DNA of 62,640 nucleotides from Acidobacteriota bacterium (GTDB lineage: Bacteria; Acidobacteriota; Terriglobia; Terriglobales; Acidobacteriaceae), in assembly GCA_003225055.1 (NCBI GenBank), contig QIAU01000193.1, positions 1 through 62,640 of the forward strand. The letters run 5' to 3'. This document shows positions 26,695-60,700 of this stretch, piece by piece. A model generated the notes under the pieces. That model was not told the DNA's origin, made no database searches, and saw nothing but the letters and a program-made list of their open reading frames with translations. A program made the position numbers and the translations under genes. Position 1 is the stretch's first letter. Every line of letters starts with the position of its first letter.

Positions 26695-26808
26695 GCCTGG
26701 GACAGGCGAGGGCGGCTGAGCGGCTGTCCCACGTATTCCTCTGCTTGCCCTCAAGCGTATAATTCAGGTTCGGTTTCCGACCGCCGGAGCCTGTGGGCAT
26801 ACCCTGGT

Positions 26809-26932
26809 CACGGCGGCGAGGGTGAGCAACTGACAGATCAAGCTGCCGCCCGAGGGTACAGGTGGAAACGCCTGCGCCTCCCGTGCTTGGCGAGGAGCAC
26901 TTGGAAAGGAGACATCCGCACGCCCTGCCGTG
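26809..26932 (+). ncRNA. structured leader RNA upstream of moaA, possible Moco-type riboswitch
   Basis: The region folds by eye into a closed domain. CACGGC (26809-26814) pairs with GCCGTG (26927-26932), and AGGGTG (26819-26824) pairs with CGCCCT (26921-26926), giving a 12-bp closing helix with a 4-base bulge. Inside are CAGGTG-GAAA-CGCCTG (26859-26874), a stem with a GNRA tetraloop, and GTGCT/AGCAC (26883-26900). The domain ends 110 bases before moaA. Moco-responsive RNAs are known in front of moaA in other bacteria; this is the best hypothesis, but I could not match the family consensus. The region is also open in one minus frame, which looks accidental. Confidence 0.5.
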
Positions 26933-28273: not shown

Positions 28274-28376
28274 CAGCTTCAACATCCCCGTAGGTTGGGC
28301 GCACAAAGCGCGGTGAACCTACTGGAGCCGGCAGGGCTTTCAACAACCCCGTTCCGGGCGGCCGAGAAAATGGGCC
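28274..28376 (+). promoter_or_regulatory. tandem NAD+-I riboswitch (nadA motif)
   Basis: Two copies of the nadA-motif aptamer stand in series before nadA. Domain I (28274-28330) shows GCTTCAACATCCCCGTAGG, the helix GTAGGTT (28290-28296)/AACCTAC (28316-28322), an inner GCGC-acaaa-GCGC hairpin, and the closing CTGGAGCC. Domain II (28334-28376) repeats it as GGCTTTCAACAACCCCGTT and closes with GGGCC, which directly follows the ATG at 28370. This matches the published nadA motif, an Acidobacteria-restricted RNA that binds NAD+ or its ADP part. Because the start codon lies in the 3' strand of domain II, ligand binding should block translation of the NAD+ biosynthesis gene. Confidence 0.93.
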
Positions 28377-29524
28377 ATACCGCCGCGGAACTGAAAGCGA
28401 GATACAGCTTGGCTACTCGACCAACCATCTGCTCTCTGGACAATTATCTTGTCCTGCCTGATCACTCGCTGGACGACCGCATCCTTGCTGCCAGAGAAGC
28501 CCTGGGCCGCGATGCCGTAATCCTCGGTCATCACTATCAACGCGATGAAGTGATTCGTTTCGCCGATTTTCGTGGCGATTCTTACCGGCTTTCGCAAGAG
28601 GCTGCCCGCGCCGCAGGCAAGTACATCATCTTCTGCGGCGTGTATTTCATGGCGGAAAGCGCCGACATCCTCAGCCGTCCCGGCCAGGTGACCATTCTCC
28701 CCGACCTGAACGCCGGCTGCTCAATGGCCGACATGGCCGAAATCACCCAGGTAGAAGACTGCTGGGAGCAACTGATCGCCGCCGGCTTAACCAGCGACAA
28801 AGGCGAGGGCATTACTCCGATCACCTACATGAATTCCAGCGCCGCCATTAAAGCATTTTGTGGCGAGCGCGGCGGCCTGGTCTGTACCTCCTCCAATTGC
28901 GCAGGCGCATTTAAGTGGGCATTTGCCAAGGCTCCCAAAGTCCTTTTCCTGCCCGACCAGCACCTCGGCCGCAACACTGCCTGCAACATGGGAATTCCGC
29001 TGAACGAGATGGCCGTATGGGATCCGTACATGCGCCACGGGGGTGTCACGCCGGAGCGACTGCGTGCCGCGCGCGTCGTCCTCTGGAAAGGCCACTGCTC
29101 GGTGCACCAGCGATTTTTGCCCGAACATGTGGATGCGGTCCGCGGGAAGTATCCTGGAGTCCGCGTGATCGTTCATCCGGAATGCCGCTGGGAAGTCTGC
29201 CGGAAGGCCGACGGCATCGGCTCGACCGACAAGCTGATCCAGATGATTCGCGAGGCTCCGTCAGGCACGAGCTTTGCCGTGGGAACTGAAATTCACCTGG
29301 TGAACCGCATGGGCAAGGAGTTCGCAGCGGACGGCAAGAAAGTCATTACCCTGGATGACTCCGGCTGCCTCTGCACCACCATGTTCCGCATTTCCCCCCA
29401 GCACTTGTGCTGGGCGCTGGAAAACCTGGTGGAGGGCAATATCGTCAATCAGATCAAGGTCAGAGACGACGTGAAGTTTTGGGCTCGCGCGGCGTTGGAT
29501 CGGATGCTGGAAATTCAGCGCTGA
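28370..29524 (+). CDS. nadA: quinolinate synthase
   Basis: A 384-residue 4Fe-4S enzyme that condenses iminoaspartate with dihydroxyacetone phosphate to quinolinate in de novo NAD+ synthesis. It shows ILGHHYQRDEVIRFADFRGD, the first cluster cysteine in IIFCGVYFMAESADIL, the second in VCTSSNCAGAF, and the third near DDSGCLCTTMFR, together with HPECRWEV. The frame extends upstream to 28295, but that part belongs to the riboswitch; the ATG at 28370 lies at the end of its second domain and is the start expected for translational control. nadB and nadC are not in the window. Confidence 0.95.
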   Translation: MGHTAAELKARYSLATRPTICSLDNYLVLPDHSLDDRILAAREALGRDAVILGHHYQRDEVIRFADFRGDSYRLSQEAARAAGKYIIFCGVYFMAESADILSRPGQVTILPDLNAGCSMADMAEITQVEDCWEQLIAAGLTSDKGEGITPITYMNSSAAIKAFCGERGGLVCTSSNCAGAFKWAFAKAPKVLFLPDQHLGRNTACNMGIPLNEMAVWDPYMRHGGVTPERLRAARVVLWKGHCSVHQRFLPEHVDAVRGKYPGVRVIVHPECRWEVCRKADGIGSTDKLIQMIREAPSGTSFAVGTEIHLVNRMGKEFAADGKKVITLDDSGCLCTTMFRISPQHLCWALENLVEGNIVNQIKVRDDVKFWARAALDRMLEIQR

Positions 29525-54019: not shown

Positions 54020-55054
54020 TTAGGTGGACACAGCTGTCCGCTTGCGACGTTCCTTCACTGTAACAGGATCGAGGAAGCTCATCATGCCGCGCAGGCGGGC
54101 GCCCACCTGCTCGATCGGGTGTTCCTGCTCGCGCTCGCGGGTCGCTTCAAACCACTCGCGTCCCGATTCGTTCTCTTTGATCCAGTTGCGGGCGTAGGTT
54201 CCGTTCTGAATCTCCTTCAGCATCTGGCGCATGGTCTGACGCGTCTCGTCGGTGACGATGCGCGGACCACCAGTGTAATCCCCGTGCTCGGCCGTGTCGC
54301 TGACCGAGTAGCGCATGTAGTTGAGGCCACCGCGATACATCAGATCCACAATCAGCTTTAACTCGTGCAGGCACTCGAAGTAGGCGATTTCCGGTTGGTA
54401 GCCGGCCTCGACCAAGGTTTCGAACCCTGCTTTCACAAGCGCGCTTACCCCACCACACAGAACCGTCTGTTCCCCGAACAAGTCGGTCTCGGTCTCCTCG
54501 GCAAAGGTGGTTTCAATAACGCCGGCTCGGGTCGTGCCGAGAGCCTTGGCGTAGGACAGGGCCAACTGCCTGGCGGTTCCGCTGGCATCCTGGTGAATCG
54601 CGAGCAGCGCGGGAGTTCCGCCGCCTTCGAGAAATACCTCGCGCACGCGGTGGCCTGGAGCTTTGGGCGCAATCATCGAGACGTCAAGGTTCGAGGGAGG
54701 GGTGATGGTTTTGAAACGGATGTTAAACCCGTGGGCGAACATCAGCGTCTTGGCCGGCAAAAGGTGCGGCGCGATGTCGTACTTATAGACCGAAGGCTGC
54801 GCCGTGTCGGGCACCAGGATCATGATCAGGTCGGCCCAGGCGGCCGCATCGGAAATGGACAACACGGTCAAACCGGCTGCCTGCGCCTTCGCGCGCGATT
54901 CGCTGGCCGAGGGCAGGCCGACGCGCACATCGACTCCACTATCTTTCAGGTTAAGCGCGTGGGCGTGGCCCTGAGAACCGTAGCCGATGATGCCCACCTT
55001 CTTCGCGCGAATCAACGCCAGATCAGCAGAGTTATCGTGATACATCTTTGCCAT
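54020..55054 (-). CDS. ilvC: ketol-acid reductoisomerase (NADP+)
   Basis: A 344-residue class I enzyme that turns acetolactate into dihydroxyisovalerate in valine/isoleucine synthesis. It shows [20 protein letters not shown], the cofactor-binding [37 protein letters not shown], the metal-binding [17 protein letters not shown], and a C-terminal knotted domain ending near [20 protein letters not shown]. The ATG at 55054 follows AGGAAGG and gives the usual length. It ends the leuA-ilvB-ilvN-ilvC operon. Confidence 0.97.
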
Positions 55055-55085
55055 AGCTGTACCTTCCTCAGGAAATCTGTTTTCG

Positions 55086-55643
55086 TTAAACCGAACAGGA
55101 AACATCTTCGTCGCCTGCCGCCGCGGCTTGCGCGAGGCCATTGACCGGCGCTAAGGGAACCGAGGACTTGCTGCCGCGGCGCATAGCCACAATGCCGGTG
55201 CGCACCATTTCCAATACGCCATAGGGACGAAGCACGTCGAGCAGGCCGTCAATCTTGTCTTCGGCGCCGGTGATTTCGATGGTCAGCGATTCCGGAGAGA
55301 CATCGACCACGCGCGCGCGGAAAACGCTGGCCAGTTCGAGCACGTGTGAGCGTGCTTCGTGCGTAGCCGCCACCTTGATCATGGCCAGGTCGCGCACGAT
55401 CGCGGCTTCCTGGGTGATGTTCTCCACCAGCAGCACGTTGACGAGCTTGTAAAGGTTAGCCTCGATGCGGCGGGCCTGGTCGTAGTCGGCGTCCACCGTA
55501 ATCGTCATGCGTGAGACTTCAGGCTTCTCCGTGCGTCCCACCGTCAGCGAATCAATATTGAAGGCGCGGCGGCGAAATAGAGAGGCCACACGGGTCAGCA
55601 CGCCCGGCTTGTTTTCGACGTATACAACGAATGTGTTCAGCAT
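55086..55643 (-). CDS. ilvN: acetolactate synthase small (regulatory) subunit
   Basis: A 185-residue ACT-domain protein that confers valine feedback inhibition on the large subunit. It starts [20 protein letters not shown] with [17 protein letters not shown], the valine-binding part, and a C-terminal domain ([20 protein letters not shown]). Length is normal. The gene lies six bases after ilvB and 31 bases before ilvC, on the same strand. Confidence 0.93.
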
Positions 55644-55649
55644 TATGTT

Positions 55650-57362
55650 TTACTCGTCAGCAGCAGTTTCTACGATTGAGCTGGGCCGTCGGATCATTTC
55701 GTGCAAAGACGCTCCGGCTGCAACCATCGGATAAACCGTGTCTTCCTGCTCGACCTGGAAATTAATCAAAACCGGGCCCTCGTGCCGGCGCGCCGATTGG
55801 ACCGCGGGCACGACCTCGGAACGTTGCTTCACGTTCATGCTCCGGATGCCGTAAGCCTCCGCCAGTTTGGCGAAATCCGGATTCAGCAGCGGTGTCGCCT
55901 GGTAATTGCGCTCGTAGAAGAATTCCTGCCACTGGCGCACCATACCCAGGTAACCGTTGTTGATGATGGCGATGTGGACTTTCAGGTTTTCCTGAACGAT
56001 GGTGGCCATCTCCGACATCGTCATCTGAAAACCGCCGTCGCCGACTATGGCCCACACTTCGGCTGCGGGACGCGCGACCTTGGCTCCGATTGCCGCCGGC
56101 AAGGCAAATCCCATCGTGCCCAAGCCTCCGGAGGTGATCAGGGAGCGCGGCTGCTCATGTTTGTAGTACTGCGCTTCCCACATCTGGTGCTGGCCGACAT
56201 CGGTGACGACCACAGTGTTGCCATCGCGGGTCTCGCGCCACAGGTCATTAATGACGTGAGCGGCGTAGAGGTGCCCGCTGTCGGGCAGGTTCTGGATGTC
56301 GCGCACCGCGGAATCGCCTTTTAGGCGGTCGATGTAGTCCAGCCATTCGCCGCGGTCGACGGTTTCAACCTTGGGCAGGAGTTCATGCAAGACTTCGCGC
56401 AGATCGCCCACCAGCGCCACATCCACCTTGACGTTCTTATTGATCTCGGCAGGATCGATTTCGACGTGGATCTTCTTGGCGTTGGAGGCGTAGGTTTTGA
56501 GGTTGCCGGTCACGCGATCGTCGAAGCGCATGCCAAGCGCGATTAACAGGTCAGCGTCCTGGATGGTGTGATTCACCCAGGCTTCGCCGTGCATGCCCAT
56601 CATGCCCAGATTCAATGGATGAGAGGCGGGAAACGCTCCCAGACCCAGCAGAGTGAGCGCAACTGGAATCCCGGCGCGCTCCGCCAGATCGCGGACTTCC
56701 CGCTCCGCGCCGGAGACGAGAATGCCGTGACCAGCAAGGATTACGGGCCGTTTGGAGTTGCGAATGAGTTCCCATGCCTGGGCGTACTCCTCGGGCGCGG
56801 GCGAGAGGTCAGGGCGATAGCCGGGCAACTGCGGCTTGGCCGCGTCCCAATCAAATTCACAGCAAGACTGCTGAGCATCCTTGGTGATGTCTATTAGGAC
56901 CGGACCTGGTCGGCCCGAACGGGCCACGTAAAAGGCTTCGCGCACCGTGCGAGCCACTTCGTCGGCATGCGTTACCAGGTAGTTGTGCTTGGTGATGGGT
57001 AGAGTGACACCCGTGATGTCAGTTTCCTGGAAAGCGTCGGAGCCGATCAGCTTGCTGCCCACCTGGCCGGTGATGCAGACGATCGGCGAGGAATCCATCA
57101 TGGCTGTGGCAATGCCGGTCACCATGTTTGTGGCGCCGGGACCTGAAGTGGCTACCGCTATTCCTACACCGCCAGTCGCGCGGGCGTAGCCGTCAGCCAT
57201 GTGCGTGGCGCCCTGCTCATGGCGCACCAATACGTGATGAATGCTGCTGTGCTTCAGTGCATCGTAGGCGGGCAGAATTGCGCCGCCGGGATAGCCGAAG
57301 ACGTGCTTTACGCCCTCGCGCTCCAGGCATTCCCAGAGAATTTGTGCTCCGGTCTTCTTCAT
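55650..57362 (-). CDS. ilvB: acetolactate synthase large (catalytic) subunit
   Basis: A 570-residue thiamine diphosphate enzyme that makes acetolactate from two pyruvates, or acetohydroxybutyrate from pyruvate and ketobutyrate. It has GVKHVFGYPGGAILPAYDAL, the catalytic Glu in HEQGATHMADGYARATGGVG, ATSGPGATNMVTGIATA, the FAD-binding middle domain, and the TPP motif GDGGFQMTMSEMATIVQENL with NNGYLGMVRQWQEFFYERNY. Length is normal. It follows leuA by 35 bases in the operon. Confidence 0.97.
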   Translation of the reverse strand: MKKTGAQILWECLEREGVKHVFGYPGGAILPAYDALKHSSIHHVLVRHEQGATHMADGYARATGGVGIAVATSGPGATNMVTGIATAMMDSSPIVCITGQVGSKLIGSDAFQETDITGVTLPITKHNYLVTHADEVARTVREAFYVARSGRPGPVLIDITKDAQQSCCEFDWDAAKPQLPGYRPDLSPAPEEYAQAWELIRNSKRPVILAGHGILVSGAEREVRDLAERAGIPVALTLLGLGAFPASHPLNLGMMGMHGEAWVNHTIQDADLLIALGMRFDDRVTGNLKTYASNAKKIHVEIDPAEINKNVKVDVALVGDLREVLHELLPKVETVDRGEWLDYIDRLKGDSAVRDIQNLPDSGHLYAAHVINDLWRETRDGNTVVVTDVGQHQMWEAQYYKHEQPRSLITSGGLGTMGFALPAAIGAKVARPAAEVWAIVGDGGFQMTMSEMATIVQENLKVHIAIINNGYLGMVRQWQEFFYERNYQATPLLNPDFAKLAEAYGIRSMNVKQRSEVVPAVQSARRHEGPVLINFQVEQEDTVYPMVAAGASLHEMIRRPSSIVETAADE

Positions 57363-57397: not shown

Positions 57398-58735
<1,338 letters not shown>

Positions 58736-58775
58736 GTCTGTCCTCCCGGCCCAATCAGGGCCAATTTTCGATCTA

Positions 58776-58817
58776 ATAACAAAAGGGCCATCATCGTTTG
58801 GTGGATGATGGCCCTTT
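58776..58817 (-). terminator. attenuator terminator before leuA
   Basis: On the minus strand, AAAGGGCCATCATC pairs with GATGATGGCCCTTT, a perfect 14-bp stem with an 8-base loop, followed by TGTTATTAG. It lies between the stop of the leader peptide (58840) and the leuA start (58735), so transcription would normally end here unless the stem is prevented from forming. Confidence 0.88.
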
Positions 58818-58839
58818 CAGAAACTTGATTTTGGCTACC

Positions 58840-58959
58840 TCATCCGCCGGATCCTCTGGGTGCAAGCACCAGGCCAAGAATGGCCACGCTAAGGAGGAGC
58901 TCCAGCGCAGGTAAGCCTAGCCCGCCGATAATTCGATTCGAATTAGTCAGAATGGCCAT
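58840..58959 (-). CDS. leu-ilv operon leader peptide
   Basis: A 39-codon ORF that starts at ATG 58959 with AGGTAGG as ribosome-binding site and ends 23 bases before the terminator stem. More than a third of its residues are branched-chain: AIL near the start, II at about 10, a LLL run at 21-23, and VAILGLVL at about 25-32. This is the layout of leader peptides that sense Leu/Ile/Val-tRNA in attenuation. A stalled ribosome in this stretch would allow an alternative fold and read-through into leuA. No such leader in this phylum is known to me. Confidence 0.8.
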   Translation of the reverse strand: MAILTNSNRIIGGLGLPALELLLSVAILGLVLAPRGSGG

Positions 58960-58979
58960 CGCCTACCTGTCACAGACCT

Positions 58980-59007
58980 CATTTACTAGCCTATGTACTC
59001 TAGACAA
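58980..59007 (-). promoter_or_regulatory. possible promoter of the leu-ilv operon
   Basis: On the minus strand a -35-like TTGTCT (59002-59007) and a -10-like TAAATG (58980-58985) are 16 bases apart and end about 20 bases before the leader-peptide start. The match is moderate. Confidence 0.35.
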
Positions 59008-59338
59008 GCGGACAGGGGCGCGTCAATCGTCAGAGCGCCGGGTTAGAAGCAAATAACGGTATTGGAGTATCAGTTTTTTCGATAGAGCTTGGAAGCGGGC
59101 AGACGCTTCAATAAGGCCTCCCCGGCAGGCTGGCGCAGCGCCTTGGGCCCTGCATAACTCATCTCTTACGAAGGAACCAGCCAAAGGAACCAGCCTTAGC
59201 CGCTGAGATGCCAGCGACATTTGGACCCTGTATTCCCAGGGGCTAAAGCCTGTTCCAACTGATGGTTTTCCGAATTCAGAGCGGAGGGTCCTGCGCCATC
59301 CTTCTCGAGCGGAGGGGTGCGCTCACCTGAACACTGGC
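59008..59338. other. spacer between leu-ilv operon and histidine kinase gene
   Basis: About 330 bases with no recognisable gene on either strand. It should hold the promoters of both divergent transcription units. Nothing else stands out. Confidence 0.5.
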
Positions 59339-60700
59339 TTGAGCATTGGAGCCTCACGTTCCGGCTGGCGCGATAGACTGGAACGGCTAGGCGGGATTCG
59401 AGGTGACGGGGCGTTGAGCAAAGGCGACCACAGGAGGATCAATTGGCTGGATGTGGTCTGGCTTCTCTTTCTGGGTGGCCTGGCCGTCCTGCCGCCGCTT
59501 TGGAACATTCGCAAAGAACTGACGCTGCTTGCCATCGGCATCGTGCAAGTGGTTGAGGGCAGATTGGTTGAGCGGTTCCCGCGATGGGGACGCTCCTACG
59601 CCGTTCTGCTCAAGCTGATTTTCTCCACACTGCTGATTGCCAGCACCGGCGGGCCCGGCATCAACAGCAGCTACTATCCTATTTATTACCTGCCGGTAGT
59701 CACGGCAGCCGTCTATTTCGGCCTGCGCATGACCCTCTTGTGGACGCTTCTGGCTTCCGGGCTGTACTGTTCCTTCCTTTATCCTGCACTTCAGGAATAT
59801 GAACTGACCGCCGATGCCATCACCGAACTCGTCCTACGCGTTCTGTTCTTTTTTGTAGCCGCGCTCGTCGTGAACCGATTTGCGGTCGAGAATCGGCGCC
59901 AGACCAAGCGTTATCAGCAACTGGCAGAACAGCTCGCGGAAACCAATCGCCAGTTACAAACCGCTCAGGCCGAGGCGCGACGATCGGAACGGCTGGCTGC
60001 GCTGGGGCAACTGTCGGCAGGATTGGCTCACGAGATTCGCAATCCCCTGGGCGTGATCCGGGGTTCGGCGGAAATGCTGAATCGGAAGCTGGAAGCGTCC
60101 AATCCGCTCGCCAGCGAACTGGCCGGCTACATTTCCGGCGAGGTCGACCGGGTCAGCGTGATGGTTGGCCGCTTCCTTGATTTTGCCCGGCCGTTGCACC
60201 CCGAAACCAGCCCCCGGCCAGTAACCGAACTGCTCGACCGCGCGCTGAAGTCGGTGGCGGAGCAGTGGCACGGCGGGAAAATTGAAGTGGCGCGTGAGTA
60301 CCAGAATGACTTGCCGCTCGCGCCGCTCGATGAAAATCTCTGTGAACAGGCGTTTGTGAACCTGATCCAGAATGCCTATGAAGCCATGGGGAACGAAGGT
60401 GGGATGCTTCGCGTGCAGGTTTCCAAGGTCATCCGGAATGATCGCCCGGGAATAGAGATCCGGCTGGAGGATACCGGGCCTGGCGTATCGGCCGACCTTC
60501 GCGAACAGATCTTCAATCCGTTTGTCACCACCAAGAAAACCGGGACCGGACTCGGGCTCTCGATTGTCTCGAAAATTCTGGACGAGCACCACGGCTCGAT
60601 CCGCGTTGAGAGCGCGCCGAATCAAGGCGCGTGTTTCGTGGTCTTTTTTCCCGCGGAAGAGCAGGCGGTACGGAAGGAAGGGGCGCTGGCCTCGGGATGA
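59339..60700 (+). CDS. membrane sensor histidine kinase, NtrB-like
   Basis: A 453-residue kinase. The N-terminal part has about six hydrophobic spans (about 38-165) as sensor, a coiled coil (about 170-215), a HisKA domain with His231 in GLAHEIRNPLG, and a HATPase domain with NLIQNAYEAMGNEGG, DTGPGVS and the FNPFVTTKKTGTGLGLSIV block. The H box and FNPFVTTK are NtrB/AtoS-type. The stop overlaps the start of the sigma-54 activator by four bases (ATGA), so the two form a cognate pair. The TTG start is uncertain. The signal sensed is unknown. Confidence 0.93.
   Translation: MSIGASRSGWRDRLERLGGIRGDGALSKGDHRRINWLDVVWLLFLGGLAVLPPLWNIRKELTLLAIGIVQVVEGRLVERFPRWGRSYAVLLKLIFSTLLIASTGGPGINSSYYPIYYLPVVTAAVYFGLRMTLLWTLLASGLYCSFLYPALQEYELTADAITELVLRVLFFFVAALVVNRFAVENRRQTKRYQQLAEQLAETNRQLQTAQAEARRSERLAALGQLSAGLAHEIRNPLGVIRGSAEMLNRKLEASNPLASELAGYISGEVDRVSVMVGRFLDFARPLHPETSPRPVTELLDRALKSVAEQWHGGKIEVAREYQNDLPLAPLDENLCEQAFVNLIQNAYEAMGNEGGMLRVQVSKVIRNDRPGIEIRLEDTGPGVSADLREQIFNPFVTTKKTGTGLGLSIVSKILDEHHGSIRVESAPNQGACFVVFFPAEEQAVRKEGALASG

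Follow-up and report, generated by a model that had tools for sequence, protein, structure and literature searches.

A probable ribosome-mediated attenuator upstream of the leuA-ilvBHC operon of an acidobacterium, and a related sequence core in other amino-acid operons of the phylum

What controls a leucine and branched-chain amino acid (BCAA) operon that is preceded by a short, Leu/Ile/Val-rich reading frame and a hairpin? The enteric trp, leu, ilv, thr, his and phe operons have ribosome-mediated attenuators, and a preliminary description of the window analysed here (the whole 62,640-nucleotide stretch of contig QIAU01000193.1 from an Acidobacteriota bacterium) proposed the same type of control for its leuA. 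On the basis of its parts, their conservation and covariation, and the match between leader codons and downstream gene, all read from sequence, we consider it very probable that the leuA-ilvBHC operon is controlled at this element by ribosome-mediated transcription attenuation; stalling, termination and regulation are predicted from these features.

The leader, the hairpin and the leuA-ilvB-ilvH-ilvC operon all lie on the minus strand of the window, from 58959 to 54020 (Table 1), in agreement with the earlier account of a 39-codon Leu/Ile/Val-rich leader ORF, a terminator hairpin and then leuA. Some of its details required correction: the stem, given as 14 bp with a U-containing tail, is indeed a hairpin with a U-rich end but has 15 pairs (14 Watson-Crick plus a G-U; 58818-58804/58795-58781, -25.6 kcal/mol); leuA starts (TTG, 58735) 45 nt 3' of the stem rather than 40 bases on; and the claimed Shine-Dalgarno sequence is weakly borne out, AGGTAGG being present but 2 nt from the ATG. 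The leader stop is 104 nt 5' of leuA, and the candidate promoter, if used, would leave about 30 nt of RNA 5' of the leader ATG. The leader contains 10 Leu, 4 Ile and 2 Val among the 38 residues after Met (16/38), an enrichment that is modest alone (one-tailed binomial P 0.004, with an assumed background of 22%), and the dominance of Leu (10/16) suits leuA as the first gene. The 256-nt leader region folds with z = -5.8 relative to 200 dinucleotide shuffles, and the window's own predicted fold contains local hairpins inside the leader. A simple terminator scan did not flag the hairpin, probably because fewer than five T occur in the 8 bases scanned after the full stem. The true start of ilvC is probably near 55054, since its best family match begins at residue 30.

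Table 1. Predicted features of the leader region and operon in the window
Feature	Position	Strand	Basis or remark
Sigma-70-like promoter TTGACG-18-TAGAGT	58997..59026	-	Weak: 1 found vs 0.5 expected in shuffles
Shine-Dalgarno-like AGGTAGG, 2 nt from leader ATG	58962..58968	-	Weak, direct reading
Leader peptide ORF, ATG start, 39 codons, peptide MAILTNSNRIIGGLGLPALELLLSVAILGLVLAPRGSGG	58840..58959	-	ORF reading
Control-codon zone, codons -19 to -8 from stop	58864..58899	-	LLL 58899-58891, VAILGLVL 58887-58864
Segment 2 (antiterminator 5' half) CGGCGGATGAGGTAGCC, includes leader stop TGA	58833..58849	-	Cognate vs swapped pairing
Micro-ORF ATG-AGG-TAG overlapping leader stop (ATGA)	58835..58843	-	Frame-specific stop statistics; predicted
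Segment 3, terminator 5' arm GAAAGGGCCATCATC	58804..58818	-	Pairing and covariation
Segment 4, terminator 3' arm GATGATGGCCCTTTT, partial repeat of segment 2	58781..58795	-	Pairing and covariation
U-rich end UUUUGUUAUU	58775..58784	-	Read at hairpin end
leuA, 2-isopropylmalate synthase, 445 aa	57398..58735	-	NCBIfam NF002086 above cut-off
ilvB, acetolactate synthase large subunit	55650..57362	-	NCBIfam
ilvH/ilvN, acetolactate synthase small subunit	55086..55643	-	NCBIfam
ilvC, ketol-acid reductoisomerase	54020..55141	-	NCBIfam

A search of its own genome with the element returned one full copy; the next-best hit (E 0.22) was its palindrome read on the opposite strand, and all further ones had E >= 0.9. 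A dispersed palindromic repeat was thus rejected, there being a single full copy in 7.4 Mb. A second leuA in the same genome (contig C64, 72% identical) has no such leader; upstream of it, judged by eye, are a divergent LysR-type gene and, in place of the leader, a box resembling ATTATAAGCTTGATTTA.

Among near relatives, a leuA match was obtained in 59 of 61 genomes and an ilvB match in 88 of 100. Among named organisms, IlvB has its relatives in Acidobacteria, the closest of them being 80% identical. Many of the readable leuA upstream regions (judged by eye, and part of those found) contain a divergent LysR-type gene, not a leader. Leaders occur before ilvB in G437, G335, G025 and G440, the first two in the window's layout of leader and hairpin, the last two with other core sequences and kept out of the covariance model described below, and before ilvD-ilvB in G027, G016, G022, G094, G428, G384, G055, G070 and G124. 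The window's order of leader, terminator, leuA and ilvB recurs in a genome of another genus (G010, locus L032), with the leader peptide MDRVAIVASRAAREVRLVLLALSVAIPGLVLAPQNSGG. The motif SVAIxGLVLAP is found in the counterpart peptides of G335 (L130, before ilvB) and of G010 (before leuA-ilvB), and the DNA stretch AGYGTGGCCATTCnTGGCCTGGTGCTTGCACC is, by eye, near letter-identical in G000, G010 and G335, which hints at an extra RNA constraint in the leader of this sub-clade. Leaders were seen in 9 of the 26 ilvD upstream regions viewed in relatives; 7 have a LysR-type box without a leader (one of these, L119 of G004, yet with a similar hairpin), and in the remaining 10 the nearby upstream DNA contains other reading frames. 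In the sole same-genus genome compared (G001), this type of ilvB is missing (best match 46%). In G029 (L112), ilvB is preceded by a hairpin and U-tract but no convincing leader, and no leader was found in the 417 nt before ilvB in G432 (L114). The element stands up to the conservation test that the preliminary description set for it: leader codons are kept in related genomes, as is the stem with compensatory changes, though some relatives retain the operon without them.

Boxes like ATTATAAGCTTGACTAAT were noticed by eye in leaderless relatives upstream of leuA (with a divergent LysR-type gene) or of ilvD (L115, L117, L121, L123, L031 and other leuA/ilvD upstream regions), and in some loci (L121, L123) the box co-occurs with a leader. 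Its position alongside or instead of the leader suggests a second control layer or a replacement.

The wider distribution was assessed with a covariance model (R1) trained on 12 leader-stop-to-terminator segments. In the class, 90 of 399 genomes had an R1 match at E <= 0.1 and 54 had one at E <= 0.001; in the phylum, 52 of 396 had one at E <= 0.01. The two samples overlap and include several training genomes, and the E-values are rough. By comparison, a similarity search of the class with the leader DNA gave matches in 52 of 399 genomes at E <= 0.1, mostly short and probably due to chance; those in G335, G124, G016, G194, G319, G364 and G301 coincide with elements found by the model. From 130 R1 matches examined (67 + 63), 125 elements were kept, 12 of them training elements, and 87 are non-redundant; the five dropped were L303, in which the element start was cut off, and L285, L286, L289 and L291, which were weak and had no amino-acid gene. 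Weaker R1 matches and matches to the palindrome on the opposite strand are mostly outside this set. In 45 genomes not labelled Acidobacteria, R1 gave a match at E <= 0.05 in 4, the best being in a Cyclobacteriaceae bin (4.2e-5; L360), the viewed part of which is a hairpin with no visible leader; the 5 Acidobacteria-labelled genomes in the same scan yielded 2 weak matches (E 0.005 and 0.04).

Amino-acid biosynthesis genes, which are invisible to R1, follow 107 of the 125 elements (95 of 113 without the training elements), the downstream gene being the nearest query-set match within 1.8 kb or, for 16 loci, set by hand. The classes are ilvD (46), ilvB (22), ilvA (9), hom (8), the leuA/cimA group (7), ilvN/H-ilvB order (7, counted as ilvH), lysC (6), cysG-like (1) and pheA-like (1), and the other 18 elements precede a 90-aa protein beside a convergent ilvC (4), LysR (3), cupin-like (2), gltB-like (2), MFS-like (2), murJ (2) and rubrerythrin-like (1) genes, one unknown and one unassigned gene; these names rest on one NCBIfam-checked member each for ilvD, one ilvB, gltB, MurJ and MFS (gltB and MFS below cut-offs), on one member each for ilvA and aspartokinase, on Pfam for one cysG-like, one pheA-like, one LysR and two hom members, and on BLAST to a checked member or inspection by eye for all others, rubrerythrin and cupin-like being named by eye only and neither the cupin-like nor the 90-aa protein having a Pfam match. 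The leuA group consists of the window, five genes at 32-34% identity (L301, the sole one checked among them, is a citramalate synthase, TIGR00977) and a distant relative, L292 (26%). The elements before the murJ, rubrerythrin and MFS genes, which lack a convincing leader, are probably false matches. Same-core Leu-rich leaders were also observed about 300-480 nt before a convergent ilvC (L295, L297, L323, L328), with a protein of about 90 aa between leader and ilvC in L295, L297 and L323; the one tried has no Pfam match.

Cores of different operons within one genome are slightly more alike (0.579, 27 pairs) than those of different operons in different genomes (0.547, 820 pairs), an excess reached in 0 of 2000 permutations (44 listed elements, 20 genomes), and the same operon compared between genomes is more similar still (0.600, 98 pairs). 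This likeness allows for old duplication with leader recoding, for shared constraint or for likeness in base composition.

The codon content of the leaders was compared with the downstream genes, the frame being fixed by the position of the stop in R1 irrespective of content; a stop codon is present there in 113 of the 125 elements. In the 58 non-redundant elements before BCAA genes, Ile/Leu/Val are frequent between about codons -7 and -18, and codons -6 to -18 comprise 367/729 Ile/Leu/Val (about 50%) in the leader frame, compared with 94/469 (20%) and 59/535 (11%) in the other two frames. In the same zone before lysC/hom (12 elements), Thr accounts for 38/156 codons (24%) and Ile/Leu/Val for 31/156, as opposed to 31/729 for Thr before BCAA genes. 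Single loci include ...CPICSCCC... ahead of a cysG-like gene (L296), ...FTFTS... ahead of a prephenate dehydratase (L344), ...TMETMTTTTTTIG... ahead of an aspartokinase-like gene (L337) and ...LAIIIRLIILP... ahead of the citramalate synthase (L301). Some elements (e.g., L267 and L332) count against the codon match, since they have a plausible leader in another frame.

The pairing between segments was assessed by comparing cognate with swapped partners. For the terminator, the 5' and 3' arms give z = -23.6 over the non-redundant elements, although kinship among the sequences inflates this and all other permutation figures. In the 12-sequence alignment, 92.3% of cells are paired, compared with at most 54% when slid; changes on both sides occur in 4 of 13 pairs (reached by 44 of 500 shuffles), the 13 cells with both-side changes and the score of 0.272 vs 0.157 are each reached by 0 of 500 shuffles, and further pair types (9) are not above shuffles. 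The 12 nt around the end of the 3' arm contain a mean of 7.3 T (87 elements). Segment 3 has a second partner: with segment 2 (GGATGA..GCC), cognate pairing averages -17.99 and swapped pairing -14.86 kcal/mol (z = -12.0, 0 of 3000 permutations, 87 non-redundant elements), and this assignment follows from the fact that the cognate signal appears only around the leader stop, 19-nt stretches further up the leader showing no preference for their own terminator arm (|z| <= 2.6, 86-87 elements). The earlier suggestion that ATGGCC words in the leader form the antiterminator did not hold, as pairing with the own arm there goes no further than z = -2.6, against -12.0 at the leader stop; a mid-leader ATGGCC antiterminator was rejected as a family-wide feature. 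Covariation and pairing energy thus point to an alternative antiterminator that would exclude the terminator, and together with the leader codons that match the gene they support the attenuator reading of the preliminary description. A conserved protector hairpin 1:2 gave no family-wide signal (best z = -2.4).

In the window itself, the duplex of segments 2 and 3 has -14.3 kcal/mol. With an assumed footprint of 12 nt, a ribosome stalled at codon -8 on RNA reaching just past segment 3 leaves the antiterminator as the predicted fold (-17.3), whereas with the ribosome at the leader stop only the terminator (-25.6) remains. Profile and folds agree on the placement of the control codons, from which a stalled ribosome would free segment 2 and a ribosome at the stop would cover it. 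As soon as segment 4 has been made, every stall position tried gives the terminator as the predicted fold; since it then beats the antiterminator, the ON state must be kinetic, as antitermination is in known attenuators.

We propose that, when charged tRNA-Leu/Ile/Val is ample, the ribosome would cross the Leu/Ile/Val zone to the leader stop and sit on segment 2, leaving segments 3 and 4 to fold into the terminator (OFF). A shortage of charged Leu-, Ile- or Val-tRNA would instead stall the ribosome at codons -8 to -19 with its footprint short of segment 2, which would be free to pair with segment 3 as the antiterminator, and RNA polymerase would read on (ON). The micro-ORF ATG-AGG-TAG, if read by reinitiating ribosomes, might lengthen the occupancy of segment 2 or keep the terminator ribosome-free.

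Two other explanations were weighed against ribosome-mediated attenuation. The hairpin could be an ordinary constitutive terminator, or that of an upstream gene, and the ORF a chance Leu/Ile/Val-rich frame: ORFs of 30-60 codons are common, the enrichment in the window reaches only P 0.004, and L360, the sole R1 match viewed outside the phylum, is a hairpin without a visible leader. There is, however, no long co-directional gene upstream to terminate, because the nearest long upstream ORF (59339-60700) is on the other strand, and the position of the stop, the leader codons and segment 2 are all kept in register with the amino acid of the gene, which leaves this explanation scarcely credible. 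Alternatively, the leader could affect leuA through translational coupling or reinitiation, or the RNA could bind a small molecule or protein (a riboswitch or LEU-like pseudoknot), in either case independently of ribosome position. According to PMC1262725, actinobacterial leuA/ilvB leaders are attenuator-like, with codon mutations of no or inconsistent effect. In view of the AUGA micro-ORF, reinitiation may matter in the present element. Coupling would nonetheless have to span the distance from leader stop to leuA across a strong hairpin; in the leader region of the window, gathering scores are not reached by any Rfam leader, T-box or riboswitch family (best sub-threshold E 0.65), and none of the 20 loci of the element tested has an Rfam match; and codon content tracks the amino acid of the downstream gene. 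We regard explanations of this second kind as improbable.

Ribosome-mediated attenuation would acquire a further step if the micro-ORF that overlaps the leader stop were translated. A start codon overlaps this stop in 68 of the 87 non-redundant elements (ATG 51, GTG 16, TTG 1), and in 50 of these 68 its frame closes after no more than five sense codons (shuffles: mean 10.9, maximum 19, 300 shuffles), a count that is weakened by kinship and by the GTAGCC in the model consensus. Within the same distance, a stop occurs in 3/68 in the third frame and in 5/68 in the leader frame past its own stop. TAG, TGA and TAA each serve as the stop; the micro-ORF measures 2 codons in 25 elements, 3 in 7 and 4 in 17, a length of 5 also occurs, and 18 of the 68 elements have no micro-ORF. 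Without the training elements the count is 41/58, and among 15 leaders identified independently of the model, 12 of which form its training set, 11 have a micro-ORF (P 7e-6 at 19% expectation) and 1 a third-frame stop. These frame-specific stops suggest a translated micro-ORF of two to five codons, and the pattern may reflect selection on reinitiating ribosomes that would keep segment 2 occupied or shield the terminator. A simple parking model is counted against by the gap to the terminator, which is no more constant from the micro-ORF stop (sd 4.7) than from the leader stop (sd 4.3).

The micro-ORF could instead be untranslated, with the TAG, TGA or TAA after GGATGA being an artefact of RNA structure or composition favoured by the covariance model. 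The consensus does contain GTAGCC, and 13 of the 17 four-codon micro-ORFs belong to ilvD leaders, 12 of them in a single family (f7). Such an artefact sits poorly with the use of three stop codons and of lengths from 2 to 5, with the scarcity of third-frame stops, with the 25 elements, out of 43 without a stop at the consensus place, that stop at one of the next three codons, and with the presence of micro-ORFs in non-training elements and in leaders found without the model; we take it as a real possibility, though clearly short of an even chance. A joint reading, which we hold tentatively and place just below an even chance, is that one modular Acidobacteriota core, recoded by its leader and carrying a translated AUGA micro-ORF inside the antiterminator, forms a two-step ribosome-parking attenuator. 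The modular core would thereby serve Leu/Ile/Val, Ile (ilvA, cimA) and Thr (lysC, hom) genes, one Cys-type and one Phe-type element, and the terminating ribosome would reinitiate and then either stay on the switch or be held off. We know of no other system with a two-step ribosome-parking attenuator, nor of an attenuator with an AUGA micro-ORF.

Like the enteric attenuators, the element combines an amino-acid-rich leader, predicted mutually exclusive antiterminator and terminator, and a biosynthetic operon downstream. It differs from them in that the leader stop is inside segment 2, one sequence core is found across operons of different amino acids, a micro-ORF overlaps the stop, and no conserved protector hairpin 1:2 was detected in the elements compared; this protector/pause hairpin is present in classical attenuators and was not treated as defining. 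The lambda bar minigenes are examples of two-codon minigenes. Another, axe-txe mg2, is described in PMC8708949; the micro-ORFs share with such minigenes the form ATG-NNN-stop, cis effects being known for the latter, but here the frame overlaps a leader-peptide stop inside an antiterminator. The actinobacterial trp attenuators, according to PMC1262725, have conserved gGCC-rGCy-GGCC triples, and are similar in that a three-segment complementary core is kept over wide distances; that core was described for trp operons, whereas the present one (GGATGA..GCC / GGCCATCATCC / GGATGATGGCC) is associated with BCAA and Thr genes and one Cys- and one Phe-type gene. The Corynebacterium ilvB-II, ilvB-OMG and Leptospira ilvB motifs, as presented in PMC10272879, likewise have a BCAA-rich uORF upstream of ilvB, with attenuation proposed, and the uORFs of ilvB-OMG and the Leptospira ilvB motif have Thr codons too; the comparison with the present element is by description, there being no Rfam match in the window leader or the 20 loci. 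Leader genes at short distances, Acidobacteria included, are the subject of PMC4833913, in the available text of which the term ilv is absent. The earlier statement that no such attenuator is described for this phylum agrees with searches of open-licence papers, in which none was found; subscription papers are mostly outside that body, and a 2010 comparative paper may cover the phylum.

The class of mechanism is old, and the phylum, the shared core and the micro-ORF look new. In many families, the searchable core links predicted attenuators to BCAA and Thr genes (and to one Cys-type and one Phe-type gene), and the leader peptide may serve as a read-out of the amino acid sensed by each operon. 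The AUGA micro-ORF, if translated, would add an extra step to the textbook mechanism, testable by single-codon changes.

In the LeuA protein of the window, the NF002086 profile is matched from 2 to 387 of 516, the usual C-terminal region being absent, and in Pfam only the HMGL-like and post-HMGL domains are matched. With the C-terminal part unmatched, the enzyme may lack feedback inhibition by leucine, which would leave control to attenuation.

A C-terminal LWGV tag (often YLWGV) ends this short LeuA (57398-57418, minus strand), the LeuA of several family relatives and that of two Gemmatimonadetes. The same tag ends small proteins, cupin-like by eye, that are encoded near leuA, beside ilvB and behind Leu-rich attenuators (tag loci: L002, L004-L008, L031, L032, L222, L244, L322, L327, L019, L022, L025, L026, L028, L035, L047 and L265). 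The tag is common to otherwise unrelated Leu-pathway proteins, and a literature search for LWGV found nothing. Elsewhere in the window, Rfam gathering scores are exceeded by two tandem nadA motif RNAs and by a molybdenum/tungsten (Moco) riboswitch motif (28275-28398 and 26763-26914).
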